A stretch of 64,000 nucleotides of DNA from Arthrobacter echini (GTDB taxonomy: Bacteria > Actinomycetota > Actinomycetes > Actinomycetales > Micrococcaceae): contig NZ_SSWH01000006.1 in NCBI RefSeq assembly GCF_004803505.1, positions 124,001 to 188,000 of the forward strand. Direction: 5' to 3'. How positions within the stretch are numbered: the stretch's first letter is position 1; each line of letters starts with the position of its first letter. Shown here one piece after another: positions 42,997-59,501 of the stretch. A program made the translations under genes and the position numbers. The notes beneath the pieces were generated by a model. That model did not search any database and had not been told where the DNA came from. It saw only the letters and a list, made by a program, of their open reading frames with translations.

Positions 42997-44355
42997 CTAC
43001 TCGTGGCGCAGGGGTTCGGCGGAGGTCTCGCGCGAGACGGCGACGGCGATCAGCGACACGACCGCTGCGGCGACGAGATACCAGGCAGGAGCCAGGTCGC
43101 TTCCCGATACGCCGATGAGGTAGGTCGCCACGAACGGCGCGGTGCCGCCGAAGATCGCGTTCGAGAGATTGAAGCTGACAGCGAAGCCGGTGTAGCGCAC
43201 GCGGGTGGGGAACATCTCCGCGAGGAAGCACGGCAGCGTCCCGTCGTTGAGCGTGAGCATGGCGCCGAGGAGGATCTGGACCAGGACGATGACCAGGAAA
43301 CTCCCCGTACCGAGCAGGGCGAATGCCGGCACGGTCAGCACGATGAACGTGATCGACGCCGAGATGAGCACCTTCTTCCGGCCGTAGCGGTCCGAGAGCG
43401 CCCCGGTCAGGAAGATGAAGCCGATGTAGGTGATCAGCGCGATGGTGGTGGCCAGGAAGGACTCCGTGGCACCGAGGCCCAGCTCCGCGGAGAGATACGT
43501 GGGCATGTAGCTGAGGATCACGTAGAAGCCGACGGCGTTGAGCAGCACGGCCCCGCCTGCCCGGAGCAGCAGACGCCAGTGGAGGCGGAAGAGGCTGGCG
43601 ACCGGCGCCTTGATGGTCTCGTCCTCCTCCGCCAGCTCGCGGAACACCGGGGTGTCCTCGAGCTTGGTCCGGATGTAGCGCCCGATCAGGCCCATGGGGG
43701 CGGCGAGGAGGAAGGGCAGACGCCAGCCCCAGCTGCTCATGGCGTCGTCGTCGAGCAGGGTGGTCAGCAGGCCCGCGATGAGTGAGCCGAGCAGGAGCCC
43801 GGCCGCCGTGCTCGCCGGCACCACGGCCGCGTAGAGCCCGCGCTTCTTCTCGGGGGCGTACTCGACGAGGAACGCCGAGGCACCGGCGTACTCGCCGGAG
43901 GCGGAGAAGCCCTGGACCACGCGGAGGAGCAGGAGCAGGATCGGCGCCCAGATGCCGATGACGGCGTAGCTGGGGATGAGGGCGATGCAGAACGTCGCAC
44001 CGGACATGATCAGGATCGAGAGGGACAGCGCGGTCCGCCGTCCCACCTTGTCGCCGATGTGCCCCCACACGAAGCCGCCGATCGGCCGCACCAGGAAGGA
44101 GATCGCGAAGAGCGCGAAGGTGAGCAGGAGGCCCGTCTGCGGATCGGACTCCGGGAAGAAGACCGCCGCGATCGTGACCGCCAGATATCCGTAGACGGCG
44201 TAGTCGAACCACTCGACGAAGTTGCCGATGAAGCTCGCCGCAATGACTCGCCTGCGGGTGCTGCTGTCCACCGTGATCGGTGCGAACGTCTCGTCCAGAC
44301 CCACGGGAGATGCCCCCGTGGTAACGGAACTGCGGTTGTCCTCGTTCTCCGCCAT
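42997..44355 (-). CDS. MFS metabolite:H+ symporter (ProP/KgtP type)
   Basis: A 452-residue symporter with 12 membrane segments. Hallmarks are SFIGNFVEWFDYAVYGYLAV in the first segment, FLVRPIGGFVWGHIGDKVGRR in the signature loop and FSASGEYAGASAFLVEYAP. The family carries small organic acids, betaines and proline. Its promoter shares the operator found before the BCCT-creatininase and creatinase genes, so it likely imports a compound of that pathway, for example creatine, sarcosine or betaine. The ATG at 44355 has a gaggtgg site. Confidence 0.9.
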   Translation of the reverse strand: MAENEDNRSSVTTGASPVGLDETFAPITVDSSTRRRVIAASFIGNFVEWFDYAVYGYLAVTIAAVFFPESDPQTGLLLTFALFAISFLVRPIGGFVWGHIGDKVGRRTALSLSILIMSGATFCIALIPSYAVIGIWAPILLLLLRVVQGFSASGEYAGASAFLVEYAPEKKRGLYAAVVPASTAAGLLLGSLIAGLLTTLLDDDAMSSWGWRLPFLLAAPMGLIGRYIRTKLEDTPVFRELAEEDETIKAPVASLFRLHWRLLLRAGGAVLLNAVGFYVILSYMPTYLSAELGLGATESFLATTIALITYIGFIFLTGALSDRYGRKKVLISASITFIVLTVPAFALLGTGSFLVIVLVQILLGAMLTLNDGTLPCFLAEMFPTRVRYTGFAVSFNLSNAIFGGTAPFVATYLIGVSGSDLAPAWYLVAAAVVSLIAVAVSRETSAEPLRHE

Positions 44356-44374: not shown

Positions 44375-44431
44375 GTTGCATTCAATGCAACATGGTTGCA
44401 CAAGACTATGAGTGCGCAACGTCACAGTCAA
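44375..44431 (-). promoter_or_regulatory. Promoter and GTTGC-N7-GCAAC operator of the MFS symporter
   Basis: On the minus strand TTGACT (44431-44426) and TAGTCT (44408-44403) are 17 bases apart. Eleven bases after the -10 lies GTTGC-attgaat-GCAAC (44391-44375), in fact a perfect 17-bp palindrome. The layout matches the two promoters at 53613 and 56437. Confidence 0.75.
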
Positions 44432-47448: not shown

Positions 47449-50383
47449 CTTTGCGGGTCCCTTCGGGGTCGAATAGCACGGTTTCTGCGACGACGACGTC
47501 GACGATCCGGTCGCCGGTCACAGCAGTCATGGTCTCGCCGATGCGCTCGCGACCGTTCTTGATGAGCGCCAGGGCGAAGGACCGGCCCAGCGCGGCACTG
47601 TGGTAGCTGGAGGTGACGAACCCCTCCATCTCGACCTTGCCCTCGATGGGGTCGATGGATCGGTCCTTCTCCACGAGCTGGGATCCCTCCGGCAACCGGT
47701 AGCTGCCGTCGACCGGCAGTACGCTCACCAGATGCTTGCGGTCCGCCCGCTGGGCATCCGCGCGGGCGTAGGAGCGCTTGCCGACGAAGGACTTGACCTT
47801 GGAGACCACCCATTCCATGCCCGCGTCCTGCGGGGTGACGGTTCCGTCGGTGTCCTGGCCGACGATCGGGTAGCCCTTCTCGGCGCGCAGCACGTGCATG
47901 GTCTCCGTACCGTACGGCGTGATGCCGAACTCGGCGCCGGCCGCGGCGACCGACTCCCAGGTGTTCAGCCCGTACCAGGACGGCACGTTGATCTCGTACG
48001 CCAGCTCACCGGAGAAGGAGATGCGGCAGACCCTCGCCCGGACGCCCGAGGCGAGTGTGGTCTCGCGGAACGTCATGAACGGGAAGGCCTCCGCTTCGAG
48101 CCCGCCGTCCTCCGCGAGCTCCGGGGCCACCTTCTCGAGCACCGCCCGCGATTTCGGCCCGACGACGGCGATGGTGGTCCACTGTTCGGTCACCGACGTG
48201 CACTGCACGTCCAGGTCCGGCCACTCGGTCTGGAGCCATTCCTCGAGCCAGTCGAGAATCCTCGCCGCTCCTCCGGTGGTCGTGGTCATGAAGTAGCGGT
48301 CCTCGTCGAGGCGCAGTGTCACGCCGTCGTCGAGGATCATGCCGTCCGCCATGCACATCACGCCGTAGCGGGCCGAGCCGGGCTTGAGCTTCTTGAACGC
48401 GTTGGTGTAGATCCGGTTGAGGAACTCGCCGGCGTCCTTGCCCCGGATCTCGATCTTGCCCAGCGTGGTCGCGTCCATGAACCCCACGGAGTCGCGGGTG
48501 GCGGCGCATTCGCGCAGCACTGCCGCGTCCATGTCCTCGCCGTCCTGCGGGTAGTACCAGGGACGCTTCCACTGTCCGACGTCCTCGAACAGGGCGCCGT
48601 GGGCCTCGTGCCACGGCTGGATGGACGTCTTGCGGGCAGGGTCGAACAACTCGCCGCGCTGGCGACCTGCGAGCGCCGCAAAGGCCACGGGAGTGAACGG
48701 CGCACGATAGGTGGTCGTCCCGATGTCACCGATGCCCCGCGAAGCCTCTCCTGCCGTGCGGAGCGCTGCGGCGATGACGCCGATCGCGTTCACGCCGGAG
48801 GTCTTGCCCTGGTCGTTCGCCGTGCTGATCGAGGTGTAGCGCTTGATGTGCTCCACGGACCGCATCCCGGCCCCGGTCGAACGCAGCACGTCGGCCACGG
48901 TCTGGTCGCGCTGGAAGTCGACGAAGTGCTGGTACCACTCGTCGGGCGTCCCGGTCTGACCGGGGACCAGCCAGAGCTGACGCGTCGGCGCCGCCGGCTC
49001 GGGTTCGGGCAGCTCCCCGGGCTGTTCCGCATCACTGAAACCGACGGCGATGGCTGCGGCCGTCCCTGCAGAACGGCCCTCGACGAGGCAGTCCTCGAGT
49101 GCGAAGCTGCCCCGGCCGGAACCGACGGACTGCTGGTCGGGGACCACGGTGCTCGGCACGAAGGCCGCCAGCTCGTCGTCCCAGCGCAGTTTGCCCTGGC
49201 GCTGGGAATGCAGGTGCACCACGGGGCTCCAGCCGCCGGAGACGGCCAGCAGATCACAGGGGATCTCCTCGCTGCTGTCCGTGAGCTCGCCGTGGTCGTT
49301 GATGCCGCGGACCGTGACACCTGCAAGTGCCCCGTCGTCGTCGGCGGTGGTGTCGGCCACCGCGCTGCTGCTCATGACCCGCGTGCCTGCTGCTGCCGCA
49401 TCCTGGGCCACGGCCGAGAGTTCGGGGCGGGCGTCGACGACGGCGGCCACCTCGATGCCTGCGGCCCGGAGATCGGCCACGAGCGCGTAGGCGCTGTCGT
49501 TGGTGGTGCTGACGACGACCTGCCGGCCCGCCGCGACGGCGTACCGGTTGAGATAGGTGCGGACCGCGGAGGCCAGCATGATGCCCGGGCGATCGTTGTT
49601 CTCGAACACCAGCGGGCGCTCGTGGGCGCCGGGCGCAAGGATGACCTGCAGGGCGCGGATGTGCCAGATGCGCTGCCTGGACACACCGGGCGCGGCAGGG
49701 CTGGAGAGGTGATCGGTGCGGTTCTGGACGGCGATCACGTAGTTGGCGTCGTAGGCTCCGAAGGCTGTGGTGCGATTGAGCACCGTGGACTCCTCGCCGG
49801 AGACCAGTTCGGCCTCGACGTCGTTCACCCACTCCAGCGCCGGTTTGCCCTCGATGGTCTCGGTCAGTTCGGGTGCGGTGGAACCCGAGAGGAGGGACCC
49901 GCCCAGTTCCGCCTGGTCGTCGAGCAGCATGACGCGCGCACCCGAGCGCATGGCCTCCCGTGCTGCCATGAGCCCTGCCGGCCCGCCGCCGATGACCAGG
50001 ATGTCCGTGTGGACGTACTTCTTGTCGTACTCGGCGCGGTCCTCCTCCGGGTCCAGGCGCCCGCGGCCGTTCAGCAGGTCCACCTTGAGGTTGTCCACGA
50101 GGGTGACCATGGTCGCCGGGAGCATGGATTCCGCGACATCACCGGGGAAACGCGGTGAGACACGCACCAGGGCGTTGGGCTCCTCCACACCGGCTGAGAG
50201 GATACCGCGTGGCCTGTTCTCGTAGAGCGACCTGCCTGCGACGTTCCTGCCGTTGGCCAGCATCGCCGAGGTGAGGGTGTCCCCGGGATGACCGGTGAGT
50301 TCCTCGCCGTCGACCGTGAAGCGCCAGGAGATGGTGCGATCGATGCGTCCGCCGTCGGCGAGACGCGAGTTCTGCGACGTCAT
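47441..50383 (-). CDS. soxA: Sarcosine oxidase alpha subunit
   Basis: A 980-residue subunit. The N-terminal third holds a ferredoxin-like start ([20 protein letters not shown]) and a nucleotide domain with [21 protein letters not shown]. The C-terminal 380 residues form a GcvT-like folate domain, with [20 protein letters not shown] near the end. It demethylates sarcosine with THF to glycine and methylene-THF (or formaldehyde without THF). Size matches the Corynebacterium-type heterotetramer. The ATG overlaps the soxD stop as ATGA. Confidence 0.95.
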
Positions 50384-50793
50384 TTCGTTGCTCCCTTCGG
50401 TGCGGTGGAGGCGTCGACCGGACCGAGGTCGGTACCCGAGATACTCGGGCCCGAGGACCCGGTGGTGGTGCTGTCGGCTGCCACGCTGGCCGTGCCGTAC
50501 TCGTCATCCGGGTCGGGATCGACCGTCGGCTGGGGTGCACCCATCGGGTACACCGCCTGGATGTCGTAGGTGACGGTGTCGCGAAGCATGTTGAACCACT
50601 GGCGGCAGCCTGTGCTGTGCAGCCAGCGCTCCGCGAACGAGCCCCTGGTGTTGTCGCGGTAGAACAGGAACTCGGCCCATTCTCGGTCGGTCAGCTCGTC
50701 CGGGTTCTCCGGGTAGGGCACGTGGGCCTGTCCACCGTAGTGGAACTCGGTCTCGTCACGGGCGCCACAGTTGGGGCAGGAAATCAGCAGCAT
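50380..50793 (-). CDS. soxD: Sarcosine oxidase delta subunit
   Basis: A 137-residue small zinc subunit. The N-terminus [22 protein letters not shown] supplies the cysteine and histidine ligands, and [20 protein letters not shown] and [15 protein letters not shown] follow. The C-terminal tail is longer than usual, rich in Thr, Ser and Asp. It is coupled to soxA by ATGA. Confidence 0.93.
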
Positions 50794-53483: not shown

Positions 53484-53536
53484 CAACTGATATATCAGTT
53501 GCGATTCACTGTAGGGCGGAAGTCCCGCTTCGTCAA
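53484..53536 (-). promoter_or_regulatory. Promoter and 18-bp palindromic operator of the glyA-sox operon
   Basis: On the minus strand TTGACG (53536-53531) and TACAGT (53513-53508) are 17 bases apart. Six bases further lies the perfect 18-bp palindrome CAACTGATATATCAGTTG (53501-53484), which covers the predicted +1 to +18. It differs from the GTTGC-N7-GCAAC sites, so a different regulator should bind it. Confidence 0.75.
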
Positions 53537-53612: not shown

Positions 53613-53669
53613 TTGACTGTGATCCCCACCACTGTACGATCTGTGAAACAACGTTGCAATAGCCGCAAC
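53613..53669 (+). promoter_or_regulatory. Promoter and GTTGC-N7-GCAAC operator of BCCT-creatininase
   Basis: TTGACT (53613-53618) and TACGAT (53635-53640) are 16 bases apart. Twelve bases after the -10 lies GTTGC-aatagcc-GCAAC at 53653-53669, about +6 to +22, a position suited to repression. Confidence 0.75.
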
Positions 53670-53754
53670 ATCCGACCCGCGTCGATCCCGGTTCTGATCG
53701 AGCGCAATCTCCGCAGCCGACGACGTGCGGCCGCCCAATGAAAGGGATGCTGGC

Positions 53755-55524
53755 ATGTCCATCCATGACCGATCGGATTCCGCCCGAGCGGCGACGCCGA
53801 ACAATGGTGCTGCCACCGGCGGCAGCACGTCGATGTCGACGAAGGCCGAGCAAGGCGACGGCGCGAGGCCACCGCGCACGGTCGATCTGCCGCGCTTCCG
53901 CGGGCGTCTGATCCCCCCGGTCGACCGGGCGATCATCAAGATCCTTCCTCCCCTGCTCATCATCGGTCTCGTCATCGCCGTGACCGTCAATCCTGATGGA
54001 GCCGCGAATGTGATCAGCGAGCTGCGCACCTTCGTCACCTCCGGATTCACCTGGCTGTTCGTCATCTACTCGCTCATCGCCCTCGCCGTGTGTGCCTGGC
54101 TGGCCTTCAGCCGCGTCGGCAAGGTCCGGCTCGGCGGACCCCGGGCCAAGCCGGAGCACGGTAATTTCGCCTGGTACTCCATGCTGTTCGCCTGTGGTCA
54201 GGGCATCGGCCTGATCTTCTGGTCCGTGGCGGAGCCGATCATGTTGCGGGACGAGAGCCCGGTCATCGCTCCGCAGGCCGATGCGTCGGGAGGCGGGATC
54301 GTCTGGTCCTACTTCCACTGGGGCCTCACGGCCTGGGCCATGTACTGCGTCGTGGCCGTGTGCCTGGCGTATTCACACCACAACCTGGGGAAGACCCTGA
54401 CCTTCAGGGAAGCCACGGTGGACATCCTGCCGAAGAAGACCCAGCGCGGCGCCGGCGTGATCGTCGAGCTGCTCGCGATCATCGCGACGGTGCTGGGGCT
54501 GGCGACGTCGTTCGGCTTCGCCGCCCTGCAGTTCACCTCCGGCCTGTCGTCCTTCACCGGCCTCGCAGCCGGTCCCGGGCTGTGGATCGCCGTCATCGTC
54601 GGCCTGGGAGGCCTGACGGCCATCTCCGCCTTCCTCGGTGTCAACAAGGGAATGAAGCGGATCAGTGAGGCGAATTCCATCCTGAGCATCGTCCTGATGG
54701 CTGCCGTCTTCGTCTTCGGACCGACCATCTACATCATCTCCAACATCTCGGAGACCTTCGGCTCGTTCTTCTACAACTTCATCCCGATGAGCTTCTGGAC
54801 GGACGCGCCCGCATCGGCAGCTCCGATCGAGAGCTGGCAGGACAGCTGGAACGGCTGGTGGACGGTCTTCATCTGGTGCTGGGTCATCGCCTTCTCGCCC
54901 TTCGTCGCCGGCTTCATCGCCCGGATCTCGCGCGGCAGGACCATCCGTGAATTCGTGATCGGGGTGACCGTCATCCCTTCGCTGATCGTCATGATCTGGA
55001 TCGGGATCCTCGGCTCGGCCGCCGTCTACTACGACGACCAGACGAACCGCTCCATCTCGGAGGACGTCGCCGCCGATACCTCGAGCGGATTGTTCGCGAT
55101 GCTCGGCATGGTCCCCGTCGTCGGCGGCCTGCTCCTGGTCGTCGCGACCATCCTGGTGGCGACCTACTACGTCACGAGCCTCGATTCCGGCACCTATGCA
55201 CTGGCGGAATTCGTCTCCGCCCCGAACAAGTCGGGCCCCTGGTTCAGGGTCATCCTGGTCGCCAGTATCGCCGCCGTGGCCCTGATCCTGCTCTCCATCG
55301 GCGGGACGGCCGTGGTGGACACGGTGCAGACCGGTACCATCATCGGCGCCTTCCCCTTCTCCTTCGTCATCCTGCTCATGATCGCCAATCTCATCCGGCG
55401 GCTACGCAAGCGCAACAAGGAGGTCAAGAGGCTCGAGAAGGAGGTCAACGACCCCGCGTACCGCCCGGAGGACGACCAGCTCGACGCCGACGGCCTGCCG
55501 GTGGCGCACCGCACGGAGCACTAG
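53755..55524 (+). CDS. BCCT-family transporter, likely pathway uptake system
   Basis: A 589-residue betaine/choline/carnitine transporter with 12 segments. The family signature is WCWVIAFSPFVAGFIARISRGRTIREF, and the first helix region reads FACGQGIGLIFWSVAEP, where BetP-type proteins have a GMGIG stretch. The substrate carries a quaternary or guanidino-type group. It is followed by creatininase after 55 bases and shares the operator, so creatinine, creatine, or sarcosine and betaines are candidates. ATG 53755 has aaaggga upstream. Confidence 0.9.
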   Translation: MSIHDRSDSARAATPNNGAATGGSTSMSTKAEQGDGARPPRTVDLPRFRGRLIPPVDRAIIKILPPLLIIGLVIAVTVNPDGAANVISELRTFVTSGFTWLFVIYSLIALAVCAWLAFSRVGKVRLGGPRAKPEHGNFAWYSMLFACGQGIGLIFWSVAEPIMLRDESPVIAPQADASGGGIVWSYFHWGLTAWAMYCVVAVCLAYSHHNLGKTLTFREATVDILPKKTQRGAGVIVELLAIIATVLGLATSFGFAALQFTSGLSSFTGLAAGPGLWIAVIVGLGGLTAISAFLGVNKGMKRISEANSILSIVLMAAVFVFGPTIYIISNISETFGSFFYNFIPMSFWTDAPASAAPIESWQDSWNGWWTVFIWCWVIAFSPFVAGFIARISRGRTIREFVIGVTVIPSLIVMIWIGILGSAAVYYDDQTNRSISEDVAADTSSGLFAMLGMVPVVGGLLLVVATILVATYYVTSLDSGTYALAEFVSAPNKSGPWFRVILVASIAAVALILLSIGGTAVVDTVQTGTIIGAFPFSFVILLMIANLIRRLRKRNKEVKRLEKEVNDPAYRPEDDQLDADGLPVAHRTEH

Positions 55525-55579
55525 CTGCACTCAGCGCGCAGCGCCGTACCGCGGCGCTGCGCACCCCACCCACAGCCCC

Positions 55580-56440
55580 ATGACCCACCCCAGGAGGCCC
55601 GCCATACACGCGGAAGCAGAAACAGAAGCAGAAGCAGACCAGGGCAGCGTCCAGCTGGCCGACATGGACGCCCACACCTTCAGGGACTGGCTGGCTCGCG
55701 ATCCGGGGCCCGTTCTGGTTCCCGTCGGGGCCCTGGAACAGCACGGACCCCATCTGCCCATGGGTACCGATGCCTTCCTGTCCACCGCGATCGCCGGCTC
55801 GGTGGCCCGGCGGACAGGAGGGCTGGTGGCCCAGCCATTCACCTACGGCTACAAGTCGCAGCAGAAGTCGGGCGGTGGAGATCATCTACCCGGCACCACG
55901 AGCCTCGATGCTGCTGCGCTCATCCATCTGACGCGCAGCGTGACCGTTTCGCTGTTCCGGCAGGGTGTCCGCCGGATCGTCTTCGTCAACGGGCACTTCG
56001 AGAACTACCAGTTCCTCTACGAGGGCATCGATCTTGCGCTCGACGGGCTGGGTATCAGGAGCGGGGATGATCGCAGTGTGCTCCTCCTGTCCTACTGGGA
56101 CTACGTTTCCGACGACACGCTCCGGAAGGTCTACCCCGACGGATTCCCGGGGTGGGCCATCGAACACGGTGGGGTTCTCGAGACTTCTCTCATGCTGCAC
56201 CTCAGGCCATCGCTGGTCGGGCTGGATCGCGCTGTGGACCATCCACCGGCAGACCTTCCGCGTTTCGATCGGCTGCCCGTGGTCCCTGAGCGCACTCCCG
56301 AGTCGGGCTGCCTGTCAGCGCCGGCGGGCTCCGATGCCGTCAAGGGCAGGCTCCTGTTCGATCAGGTCGTGGAGGATCTCTCGACCGACATCCGTGTGGA
56401 GTTCGGCCTCGAGACGTCGAACCATACGGAAAAGGCTTGA
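55580..56440 (+). CDS. Creatininase (creatinine amidohydrolase)
   Basis: A protein of about 286 residues of the creatininase family, which opens creatinine to creatine. Metal ligands are Glu53, His55 and Asp64 (ALEQHGPHLPMGTD), and His139 and Glu141 in VNGHFEN. EHGGVLETSLM follows. The N-terminal 20 residues are a low-complexity AEAETEAEAD stretch. The start is uncertain: ATG 55580 has no ribosome-binding site, while an AGGAGG at 55592 lies six bases before an in-frame ATA at 55604. Family members may act on other lactams, but creatinase follows. Confidence 0.87.
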   Translation: MTHPRRPAIHAEAETEAEADQGSVQLADMDAHTFRDWLARDPGPVLVPVGALEQHGPHLPMGTDAFLSTAIAGSVARRTGGLVAQPFTYGYKSQQKSGGGDHLPGTTSLDAAALIHLTRSVTVSLFRQGVRRIVFVNGHFENYQFLYEGIDLALDGLGIRSGDDRSVLLLSYWDYVSDDTLRKVYPDGFPGWAIEHGGVLETSLMLHLRPSLVGLDRAVDHPPADLPRFDRLPVVPERTPESGCLSAPAGSDAVKGRLLFDQVVEDLSTDIRVEFGLETSNHTEKA

Positions 56441-56494
56441 CTTTGCTCGTGTGACGTTCAATACTCCAAACAACAGTGTTGCAGCTCACGCAAC
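56437..56494 (+). promoter_or_regulatory. Promoter and GTTGC-N7-GCAAC operator of creatinase
   Basis: TTGACT (56437-56442) overlaps the creatininase stop and is 17 bases from AATACT (56460-56465). Twelve bases after the -10 lies GTTGC-agctcac-GCAAC at 56478-56494. Creatinase thus has its own promoter within the cluster. Confidence 0.73.
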
Positions 56495-56552: not shown

Positions 56553-57809
56553 ATGACAACCACCGATGACCAGAACGTCTCCGACGTCACGAAACTCGAG
56601 CGCCTCAAGACCCTGCACAACGGCGAGAAGGTCCCGCTCACCTTCTCCGACGCGGAGTTCGAGCGGCGACTGGGTGGACTCCGCCGCATCATGTCCGAGA
56701 AGGACCTGGACGCCGTGGTCCTGACCAGCTACCACTCGATCAAGTACTACTCCGACTTCCTCTTCACCTATTTCGGGCGCTCGTACGCGATGGTGGTCAC
56801 GGCCGACGACACCGTGACCATCACGGCGAACATCGACGCCGGGATGCCCTGGCGACGCAGCTTCGGCGACAACCTCGTGTACACGGACTGGCGACGCGAC
56901 AACTACATCCACGCGATCCAGGAATCACTGCGGACCCGGGGGGTGAACGTCCGCCGCCTCGGCGTCGAGGACGACACCCTGCCGCTGGACAGCCGGAACA
57001 AGATCCAGGCGGCTTTCGAGAATGCAACCCTCGTCGATGTGGCCCAGGCAGCCATGCGTCAGCGCATGATCAAGTCAGCGGAGGAGATCGAGGTCATCAA
57101 GCATGGCGCACGGATCGGCGACCTCGGCGGGGAAGCCATCCGTAACGCCATCACCGGTGGCATCAGCGAGTACGAGGTGGCGCTCATCGGCACCGAGGCC
57201 ATGGTGCACGAGATCGCGCGGACCTTCCCGGACTCCGAGATCCGTGACACCTGGGTGTGGTTCCAGTCGGGCATCAACACCGACGGAGCACACAACTGGG
57301 CGACCACCCGGAAGATCCAGGAGCACGACATCCTGTCCCTGAACTGCTTCCCGATGACCTCCGGGTACTACACCGCCCTCGAGCGCACCCTGTTCTACGG
57401 GGAGCCGGACGCACGGTCGCTCGAGCTGTGGAACATCAACGTCGAGGTCCACAAGCGCGGTCTGGAGCTCATCAAGCCCGGCGCAGTCTGCAAGGACATC
57501 GCGGCCGAGCTCAACGAGATCTTCGTCGGTCACGGGCTGCTGGCGAACCGGACGTTCGGCTACGGACACTCGTTCGGCGTGCTCAGCCACTACTACGGTC
57601 GTGAGGCCGGTCTGGAGCTGCGCGAGGACATCGACACCGTCCTGGAGCCGGGAATGGTCGTTTCGATGGAGCCGATGATCACGGTACTCGACGGCCAGCC
57701 CGGGGCAGGCGGGTACCGTGAGCACGACATCCTGGTTGTCGGCGAGGACGGCTCGGAGAACATCACGAAGTTCCCGTTCGGACCCGAGCACAACATCGTC
57801 GGCGCCTGA
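56553..57809 (+). CDS. Creatinase (creatine amidinohydrolase)
   Basis: A 418-residue M24-fold enzyme that hydrolyses creatine to sarcosine and urea. The catalytic histidine is His247 in FQSGINTDGAHN. The long C-terminal part (GYGHSFGVLSHYYGREAGLEL, then EDIDTVLEPGMVVSMEP) closely follows Pseudomonas creatinase. The metal ligands of aminopeptidase P are not needed in this subgroup. AGGAAGGG precedes ATG 56553. It supplies sarcosine for the oxidase encoded on the other strand. Confidence 0.96.
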   Translation: MTTTDDQNVSDVTKLERLKTLHNGEKVPLTFSDAEFERRLGGLRRIMSEKDLDAVVLTSYHSIKYYSDFLFTYFGRSYAMVVTADDTVTITANIDAGMPWRRSFGDNLVYTDWRRDNYIHAIQESLRTRGVNVRRLGVEDDTLPLDSRNKIQAAFENATLVDVAQAAMRQRMIKSAEEIEVIKHGARIGDLGGEAIRNAITGGISEYEVALIGTEAMVHEIARTFPDSEIRDTWVWFQSGINTDGAHNWATTRKIQEHDILSLNCFPMTSGYYTALERTLFYGEPDARSLELWNINVEVHKRGLELIKPGAVCKDIAAELNEIFVGHGLLANRTFGYGHSFGVLSHYYGREAGLELREDIDTVLEPGMVVSMEPMITVLDGQPGAGGYREHDILVVGEDGSENITKFPFGPEHNIVGA

Positions 57810-57964: not shown

Positions 57965-58624
57965 ATGAGCGGTACGAGCACGATGACGGGCGAGGACGTG
58001 TCGCTGGCCGAGCGCGCATACGGGATCCTGCGCGACCGGCTGATCATGCTGGACATCGCTCCGGGGGAACCCATCAACGAGGCCCGGGTGGCTGCGGAAC
58101 TCGGGTTCGGCAGGACCCCCCTTCGCGAAGCGCTCAAACGGCTCGAGACGGACCATCTGGTCATTTCCTACCCGCGCAGGGGGACCTTCGCCACGATCGT
58201 GGACATCACCGATCTCGCCGCAATCTCGGAGGTACGCCAGGTACTGGAGCCATTGGCCGCGCGCAGGGCTGCGTCGAACGGCAATCCCGGCATCCGTGTC
58301 GAGCTGGAAGAGGTCGTGTCGGCGATCAAGTCGATGGACATCGGTCAGGACCGGAACGAGCTCATGAGGTACGACCTCGAGGTGCACCGCCTGATCTACC
58401 GCGCGGCCGGCAATCATCACCTCGAGGAGTCCCTGATCCGGCTGGACAATCTGGCAACCCGCATCTGGTGCCTGGTCCTGAATCGCCTGCCCTCCATCGC
58501 GGGGCATATCGCAGAGCACGTGGACCTGCTTCGCGCCATCCTCGCCGGCGACGCGGAGCAGGCCGCTGCCCTGGCCGCGAACCATGTCACACATTTCGAG
58601 CGGACAGTGCGAACCGTCCTCTGA
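57965..58624 (+). CDS. GntR-family regulator (FadR/FCD type)
   Basis: A 219-residue regulator with a winged helix at about residues 15-80 (LAERAYGILRDRLIMLDIAPG, then FGRTPLREALKRLETDHLV) and an FCD ligand domain. Metal ligands of FCD proteins are in RYDLEVHRLIYRAAGN and HVDLLRAILAGD and ANHVTHFERTV. It is the first gene of a GntR-IclR pair after creatinase. It is a candidate for one of the two operator types in this region. Confidence 0.9.
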   Translation: MSGTSTMTGEDVSLAERAYGILRDRLIMLDIAPGEPINEARVAAELGFGRTPLREALKRLETDHLVISYPRRGTFATIVDITDLAAISEVRQVLEPLAARRAASNGNPGIRVELEEVVSAIKSMDIGQDRNELMRYDLEVHRLIYRAAGNHHLEESLIRLDNLATRIWCLVLNRLPSIAGHIAEHVDLLRAILAGDAEQAAALAANHVTHFERTVRTVL

Positions 58625-58655: not shown

Positions 58656-59501
58656 ATGACCTCAGTAGAACAGTCCGACGCCGCGGCCCGGGAGCCGAAA
58701 AGCGCCTCCGTCATCATCAACGCCATCGCAGTGCTGCGCACCTTCACCGCGGACGAGCCGCTTCTCGGAGTGACCGAGATCGCGAGCAGGGTAGGGCTGC
58801 ACAAGAGTACGGTCTCGAGGATCCTGGCGACCTTCGAACAGGAACACCTCGTGGAACGCGACGCCGAGACACGCAGATTCCGCCTCGGGCTGGGCCTGAT
58901 CGCTGTCGCCGGTCCGCTGCTGGCCGATCTGGAGGAACGGCAGGTGGCTCATCCCGTGCTGCGTGCACTGGCCGAGCAGACGGGAGAGACGAGCGCGCTC
59001 ATGGTGTGGAGCGACGACCAGTCCATGTGCGTGGAGCAGATCCCGAGCCACCATCAGATCAAGCACAGCACGCCCCTGGGAACCAGATACAAGGATGCCA
59101 TGAGCGCCTCGGTGCAGGTCTTCCTGTCGGCGGCACCCACGGAGGACGTCGTGTCCCTGCTGCGCAACGGGTCGATCACCTATCCGGAGCTCGACGACAC
59201 CGCACTCGATGCCTATCTACTCCGCCTGGAGGAGAACCGCCTCCGGGGCTGGGCGAGCAACTACGGTGAGACCTCGACCGACGAAGTCGGTGTGGCGGCC
59301 CCGGTCCACGATCATCGCGGGCACCTCGTGGCAGCGGTCCTGATCCCGGCACCGCGCTTCCGTGTGGATCCTGACCGGCTGCAGGATCTCGGAGCTGCCT
59401 GTTCGGCTGCCGCGCAGCAGGTCACCGCACGCCTGGGCGGCAAGGCCCCCGGCGCTCCGCACATCGACGATCCGGAGATCGACCGCGTAAGAGGCCGATG
59501 A
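58656..59501 (+). CDS. IclR-family regulator
   Basis: A 281-residue regulator with an IclR helix-turn-helix at about 20-80 (ASVIINAIAVLRTFTADEPL, then GVTEIASRVGLHKSTVSRIL) and a C-terminal effector domain (ALMVWSDDQSMCVEQIPSHH, then GWASNYGETSTDEVGVAAPV). It starts 31 bases after the GntR stop with a tggag site. It is a candidate for the GTTGC-N7-GCAAC operators. Confidence 0.91.
   Translation: MTSVEQSDAAAREPKSASVIINAIAVLRTFTADEPLLGVTEIASRVGLHKSTVSRILATFEQEHLVERDAETRRFRLGLGLIAVAGPLLADLEERQVAHPVLRALAEQTGETSALMVWSDDQSMCVEQIPSHHQIKHSTPLGTRYKDAMSASVQVFLSAAPTEDVVSLLRNGSITYPELDDTALDAYLLRLEENRLRGWASNYGETSTDEVGVAAPVHDHRGHLVAAVLIPAPRFRVDPDRLQDLGAACSAAAQQVTARLGGKAPGAPHIDDPEIDRVRGR

Follow-up and report, generated by a model that had tools for sequence, protein, structure and literature searches.

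What coordinates the uptake and breakdown of creatine and creatinine in Arthrobacter echini? In the stretch analyzed here, 64,000 nucleotides of contig NZ_SSWH01000006.1 (positions 124,001 to 188,000 of the forward strand, hereafter the window), three promoters drive genes for an MFS symporter, for a BCCT-family transporter with creatininase, and for creatinase, and all three carry the palindrome GTTGC-N7-GCAAC (N, any base) just behind the promoter. A GntR-family and an IclR-family regulator are encoded downstream of creatinase; which of them reads the shared element? We find that the palindrome belongs to a larger operator of three boxes, GCAAC-N3-GTTGC-N7-GCAAC, and that this operator of creatine/creatinine genes is real and conserved in many related species. 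Judged from sequence comparison, the window sites are probably three-box operators of the IclR-family protein encoded at 58656-59501.

Three promoters share a three-box operator

Within the 64-kb window, GTTGC-N7-GCAAC has three exact matches and no further ones (44375-44391, 53653-53669 and 56478-56494), against a mean of 0.03 in 100 dinucleotide shuffles, none of which reaches three. The motif is palindromic, and the minus strand given for the site at 44375-44391 is simply the strand of its gene. A first-pass annotation of this DNA had reported the three sites at these coordinates and had assigned each of them to a promoter with a TTGACT -35 and a spacer of 16-17 bases, 11-12 bases past the -10 element; both observations are borne out. 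The shared operator that it proposed is real, but it is not the single palindrome described there: a third box, overlooked at that time, lies three bases 5' of every window site, and in relatives the element consists of three boxes. Box 1 starts 3-4 bases past the -10 element at all three window promoters and is followed by boxes 2 and 3 (GTTGC-N7-GCAAC), so that the operator spans the point where transcription is expected to begin and the first transcribed bases. The sites and their promoters are as follows.

44375-44399, minus strand: three-box operator of the MFS symporter gene, GCAAC-CAT-GTTGC-ATTGAAT-GCAAC, no mismatch; box 1 GCAAC at 44399-44395
44403-44431, minus strand: promoter of the MFS symporter gene, TTGACT at 44431-44426, spacer 17, TAGTCT at 44408-44403, 11 bases to GTTGC
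53645-53669, plus strand: three-box operator of BCCT-creatininase, GAAAC-AAC-GTTGC-AATAGCC-GCAAC, one mismatch; box 1 GAAAC at 53645-53649
53613-53640, plus strand: promoter of BCCT-creatininase, TTGACT at 53613-53618, spacer 16, TACGAT at 53635-53640, 12 bases to GTTGC
56470-56494, plus strand: three-box operator of the creatinase gene, ACAAC-AGT-GTTGC-AGCTCAC-GCAAC, one mismatch; box 1 ACAAC at 56470-56474
56437-56465, plus strand: promoter of the creatinase gene, TTGACT at 56437-56442, spacer 17, AATACT at 56460-56465 (a weak -10), 12 bases to GTTGC

Is the element kept in relatives? Window proteins were mapped onto 35 relative loci fetched with the GntR protein (L039-L073) and 40 fetched with the IclR protein (L074-L113), and genes, those of the window included, were scored for a site with at most one mismatch no more than 350 base pairs (bp) upstream of the start. 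Orthologues of the MFS symporter, defined by at least 65% identity (the MFS proteins of L088, L092 and L095 fall below this and were left out), have a site in 33 of 34 cases, exact in 26. BCCT genes have one in 9 of 14 cases and creatinase genes have their own in 17 of 42; among the 25 creatinase genes that lack one, 22 immediately follow an MFS gene, the rest being those of L044, L049 and L068. The comparison of intergenic regions that the first-pass annotation had proposed as a check thus finds the site retained. Upstream sites occur at 1/19 creatininase, 1/62 GntR, 2/48 IclR and 5/44 glyA starts, the glyA cases being divergent regions (window, L039, L040, L068, L093) and the two IclR cases paralogues of L103. 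For box 1 we tallied 59 promoters (33 MFS, 9 BCCT, 17 creatinase), each gene being represented by its closest exact site or, where it had none, by its closest site with one mismatch; this set retains doubtful rows, such as the creatinase of L088, and counts one L096 site in both directions. The five letters of GCAAC, three bases 5' of GTTGC, are kept in 51, 53, 57, 57 and 56 of the 59.

Genome-wide, the three-box form is more specific than the palindrome alone. With at most one mismatch, GCAAC-N3-GTTGC-N7-GCAAC has four sites in the A. echini genome (3.18 Mb), all beside creatine/creatinine-type genes, whereas the bare 17-mer, for which a genome scan had been suggested, occurs eight times against three for the reversed pattern and is not fully specific. 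Its genome-wide count was dropped as proof, several GC-rich relatives having no excess. In five genomes with few 17-mers (G344, G412, G240, G312, G063), every exact one (2, 2, 1, 1 and 1) falls inside these loci; in G046 and G376 background dominates.

The other five 17-mer sites of the own genome comprise that of L001/L106, explained by an IclR paralogue described below, and a remainder in L002, L003, L007 and L008. At L002:1501-1517 (contig C22), GTTGCGCACTATGCAAC lies across the start codon of a gene that we take to be AsnC/Lrp-like, and GTTGCGTACTATGCAAC is present in G081, G260 and G271 among the matches listed; the two are perhaps an unrelated conserved site.

The operator travels with the IclR gene

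The genes that bear on the choice of regulator are listed here.

42997-44355, minus strand: MFS metabolite/H+ symporter, candidate creatine or creatinine importer (domain searches)
53755-55524, plus strand: BCCT-family transporter (domain searches)
55580-56440, plus strand: creatininase (NCBIfam TIGR04448, above cut-off)
56553-57809, plus strand: creatinase (Creatinase_N and Peptidase_M24 domains; named from its neighbors and by the first-pass annotation)
57965-58624, plus strand: GntR-family (FCD) regulator, proposed for glyA-sox and not for the three-box operators (domain search)
58656-59501, plus strand: IclR-family regulator, proposed binder of the three operators (the open frame starts at 58584)

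No NCBIfam creatinase model matched the window creatinase. The IclR protein has both PF09339, the helix-turn-helix (HTH) domain, and PF01614, the C-terminal effector domain, above cut-off.

Among the IclR-fetched loci, every one with a creatinase gene has a three-box site with at most one mismatch (33/33; GntR is present in 20 of these loci and absent from 13), as do 4 of the 7 without creatinase; the reversed control pattern occurs in 0 of 40. A larger set of 80 named loci was chosen by the IclR protein alone; it is mostly from Arthrobacter and Pseudarthrobacter, and at least six of its loci appear to share contigs with earlier ones. Here a three-box site with at most one mismatch is present in 76 of 80 loci, the reversed pattern in 0 of 80, and GntR (at least 60% identity inside 6-kb flanks) in just 8. 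Three of the four misses are short contigs without creatinase, the fourth being L199, and 105 of the 115 sites precede an MFS gene. These co-occurrences suggest that the three-box site is the operator of IclR and very probably not of GntR.

A fourth site and a sister regulator

The operator is not limited to the three window sites of the first-pass annotation. A fourth three-box site in the same genome (G000:C11:43140-43164, locus L106) matches all 15 fixed letters and lies between divergent genes for an amidohydrolase and for a hydantoinase A/B fusion, the latter followed by an MFS transporter. The amidohydrolase matches N-carbamoylsarcosine amidohydrolase 1NBA at 1.8e-165, and on the known roles of these enzymes the genes probably constitute a second creatinine-to-sarcosine route, via N-methylhydantoin. 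Adjoining the site is a paralogue of the IclR gene (the whole group, paralogue, amidohydrolase, hydantoinase fusion and MFS, is at L106:9287-16789, contig C11), 40-43% identical to the window protein and the only other match in the own genome at E of at most 1e-40 (6 of 21 candidates scored). Loci of relatives fetched through such paralogues (L103, L104, L105, L108, L109) have the amidohydrolase in five of five cases and hydantoinase plus MFS in four of five; their boxes are exact in L108, with one mismatch in L103 and L104, two in L105 and three in L109.

Do the two paralogues cross-bind, so that one or both control all four sites? We regard this as possible, if on balance somewhat doubtful. 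The helix-turn-helix stretch HKSTVSR is identical in both proteins, and the fourth site has every fixed letter of the operator; sites at the paralogue, however, lean to GTTGCT...AGCAAC, a form that L106 and L108 match perfectly and that L103, L104, L105 and L109 miss by one or two letters. A T after GTTGC is found in 1 of the 59 creatine-locus promoters yet in 19 of the 115 named-locus sites, which makes the difference a tendency only.

Repression, activation and a CRP-type box

The placement of the operators would fit repression by the IclR protein. Might it instead activate, or both activate and repress, as PcaU does? PcaU and PobR, members of the same family, are activators. They also have three-box sites (PMC8222616), and at many MFS promoters of the named relatives another three-box site lies further up, at a distance of 121-186 bp (mostly 131-147 bp; 36 same-strand pairs in the 76 site-bearing loci among L136-L215); it could seat an activator or a looping repressor, looping between paired sites being possible. 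Against activation, the conserved site lies right behind the -10 element, over the expected transcription start, and a good -35 is present: when each named locus is represented by its site with the best TTGAC, the match is perfect in 75 of 76. Activation by IclR is accordingly a reading that we consider unlikely.

A further element lies in the spacer between -35 and -10. GTGA-N6-TCAC, the consensus of CRP and GlxR, is found with at most one mismatch at 32 of the 59 promoters order-wide, 30 of the 32 boxes lying at -36 to -33 from GTTGC, in the spacer (0.64 in shuffles), and in this set N6 exceeds all other spacer lengths between 2 and 13. In the named set the box is present in 71 of 76 loci (0.97 in shuffles). 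Two of the window promoters have one.

44412-44425, minus strand: CRP-like box GTGA-N6-GCAC in the spacer of the MFS promoter, one mismatch
53619-53632, plus strand: CRP-like box GTGA-N6-CCAC in the spacer of the BCCT promoter, one mismatch

The creatinase promoter has no clear box of this kind, the best having two mismatches and lying elsewhere. The own genome has three cNMP-binding genes (cNMP, cyclic nucleoside monophosphate), one of them with a Crp HTH. The box suggests an additional layer of global control, and its position suggests that occupancy would repress.

A proposed separate operator for the GntR regulator

The GntR protein is encoded between creatinase and IclR, and its gene lies near sites in some relatives, but that it binds GTTGC-N7-GCAAC is very unlikely. 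A regulon under GntR would have the site travel with the GntR gene, which it does not. Of 27 searched genomes with a GntR match, 17 have no IclR match at 1e-40, and none of their 19 GntR loci has a site. Conversely, 13 creatinase loci have the site with no GntR in the locus, and two genomes, G364 and G430, combine IclR, creatinase and the site yet lack any GntR match at 1e-30. Among the GntR-fetched loci a three-box site with at most one mismatch occurs in 8 of the 9 that also hold creatinase or IclR and in 2 of the 26 that hold neither (reversed control, 1/35). Those two, L046 and L072, come from genomes that do carry IclR: for the first it lies on a different contig, for the second 1.5 kb beyond the fetched stretch; the sole siteless locus among the nine, L044 (G054), has creatinase and no IclR at 1e-40. 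The first-pass annotation had left the choice between IclR and GntR undecided; the counts speak for the former (33/33 and 76/80 loci), and GntR was set aside as binder on co-occurrence (0/19 loci without IclR).

GntR goes instead with another palindrome.

53484-53501, no strand assigned: palindrome CAACTGATATATCAGTTG, 18 bp, just upstream of glyA (minus strand), proposed GntR operator (from sequence)

In 24 of the 35 GntR-fetched loci the general form TGATATATCA is found no more than 330 bp 5' of a GntR, glyA or soxB gene, and the other 11 have none; in these loci (683 kb) all 26 copies are so placed, with 0.0 expected from shuffles. In the window and 75 loci together, 35 of 36 copies lie upstream of GntR, glyA or soxB, the exception being L113:8258, and the exact CTGATATATCAG occurs once in the own genome. 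We propose TGATATATCA as the GntR operator. With a different element going with each regulator, uptake and conversion on one side and sarcosine oxidation on the other look like separate regulons, which would divide the single regulon of the first-pass annotation: the creatine/creatinine uptake and breakdown genes do share one operator, but glyA-sox seems to stand apart.

Between soxB and soxA, a 137-residue frame (50380-50793, minus strand) presumably resembles a sarcosine oxidase delta subunit.

That the three sites reflect chance, or parts of coding sequence or RNA structure, is practically negligible: the bare 17-mer does occur at five other sites of the own genome, but three in the window against 0.03 in shuffles, with position and letters conserved across the order, leave such a reading next to no room.

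Weighing the evidence and a proposed mechanism

Several observations weigh against IclR as the reader of these sites. Two of the three window sites have one mismatch in box 1, and in this locus no site precedes the IclR gene, so autoregulation is not visible. Among IclR-fetched loci without creatinase, L083, L105 and L109 have no site at up to one mismatch, and L199 has IclR, MFS and creatinase yet no site. Counts over relatives are not independent observations, least of all those over the 80 named Arthrobacter and Pseudarthrobacter loci, and some of the 27 GntR genomes rest on weak matches (that of G013 is a GntR fragment). Genome-wide, the bare 17-mer fails to outnumber its reversed control in several GC-rich relatives (6 against 24 in G046). 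At up to two mismatches the three-box form has no clear excess over the control among the matches listed for 80 genomes, and at up to three it has none in the own genome (77 against 102 on both strands); for this reason only the form with at most one mismatch was used.

With the IclR protein as the probable regulator, how might the system work? Binding, repression and inducer are inferred, as is the role of the CRP-type box. In the absence of inducer, a dimer or tetramer of IclR would occupy the three boxes and block promoter opening or promoter escape by RNA polymerase at the symporter, BCCT-creatininase and creatinase genes. Creatine, creatinine or the product sarcosine would bind the effector domain and relieve repression, turning on uptake together with conversion to sarcosine; glyA-sox, for sarcosine breakdown, would be switched separately by GntR via TGATATATCA. 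The paralogue, with its near-identical operator, would control the hydantoinase/N-carbamoylsarcosine amidohydrolase route.

For an orthologue, the structure of the effector domain is already solved. Residues 4-176 of PDB 3OBF (173 residues) agree letter for letter with the effector domain of the IclR protein encoded in the creatinase locus L079 (L079:9518-10333), which is 67% identical to the window IclR. The entry is named 'Putative transcriptional regulator, IclR family', which says nothing specific on function, and no paper with both '3OBF' and 'IclR' turned up in a literature search. The fuller picture, tentative and somewhat short of an even chance, would be of two sister IclR regulators that use one operator grammar for both creatinine-to-sarcosine routes with partial cross-binding, under CRP-type carbon control, with GntR in charge of sarcosine oxidation and the 3OBF domain a sensor of creatine or creatinine.

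Such an assignment would supply a regulator, an operator and a likely inducer class for creatine and creatinine breakdown in the order that includes Arthrobacter, and it suggests a role for 3OBF, whose structure is solved. Arthrobacter enzymes of the creatine pathway serve serum creatinine measurement (PMC4941409), and the operator with its regulator could offer a natural part for a creatine/creatinine biosensor. The sister pair would also suit tests of how three-box sites are read.

Relation to known systems

Creatine genes are under other kinds of regulators in two described systems. In Corynebacterium glutamicum ATCC 14067 they are controlled by AmtR, and the gene content is like that found here (the MFS transporter CreT, creatininase, N-carbamoylsarcosine amidase and hydantoinase), but AmtR is a TetR-family nitrogen regulator with the site CTAT-N6-ATAG, and the words IclR and GntR are absent from the main text of that article (PMC8864220). 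In Arthrobacter sp. TE1826, soxA-crnA-creA are under SoxR; these too are creatinine-to-glycine genes in Arthrobacter, but the regulator is of the LysR type and the cluster encodes a monomeric sarcosine oxidase (PMC4941409). Among the literature matches listed, no account of creatinase under IclR control was found, though PMC12048155 contains both words.

Within the IclR family, PheR of Sphingobium represses an uptake/catabolic operon, protects +23 to -21 and requires a GCAACG core (PMC13273656). It shares with the system proposed here the family, a GCAAC-type core and coverage of the transcription start; it differs in its phenanthrene pathway and 44-bp footprint, and the parts of that article used here give no three-box GTTGC-N7-GCAAC reading. 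The window IclR matches the NCBIfam model for PcaR/PcaU/PobR, far below cut-off, and the PcaU and PobR operators differ from those found here in their position relative to the promoter. In Acinetobacter, PcaU and PobR recognize a palindrome with an external direct half-site, as here, but with other letters and for another pathway (PMC8222616).

The first-pass annotation knew of no description of this operator. For creatine genes this agrees with the searchable literature, but three-box IclR operators of such geometry are described, in 32 of 181 orthologous groups (Suvorova and Gelfand 2021, PMC8222616). 'Creatin' is absent from the main text of that article, the supplementary tables being outside this check, and this orthologous group may be in its tables. 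The targets here, creatine and creatinine genes, differ from those of the operators described there, and in the box itself GTTGC fits four of the five letters of GTTYC, averaged over many groups, with G at the Y position. The architecture is shared: as in those operators, the 59 promoters have three boxes of alternating direction, with boxes 2 and 3 forming a 17-bp N7 palindrome like GTTYC-N7-GRAAC (group 1, subgroup GTT-11-AAC) and boxes 1 and 2 separated by N3, as in the group 2 consensus, in which GRAAC and GTTYC lie 3-4 bases apart.

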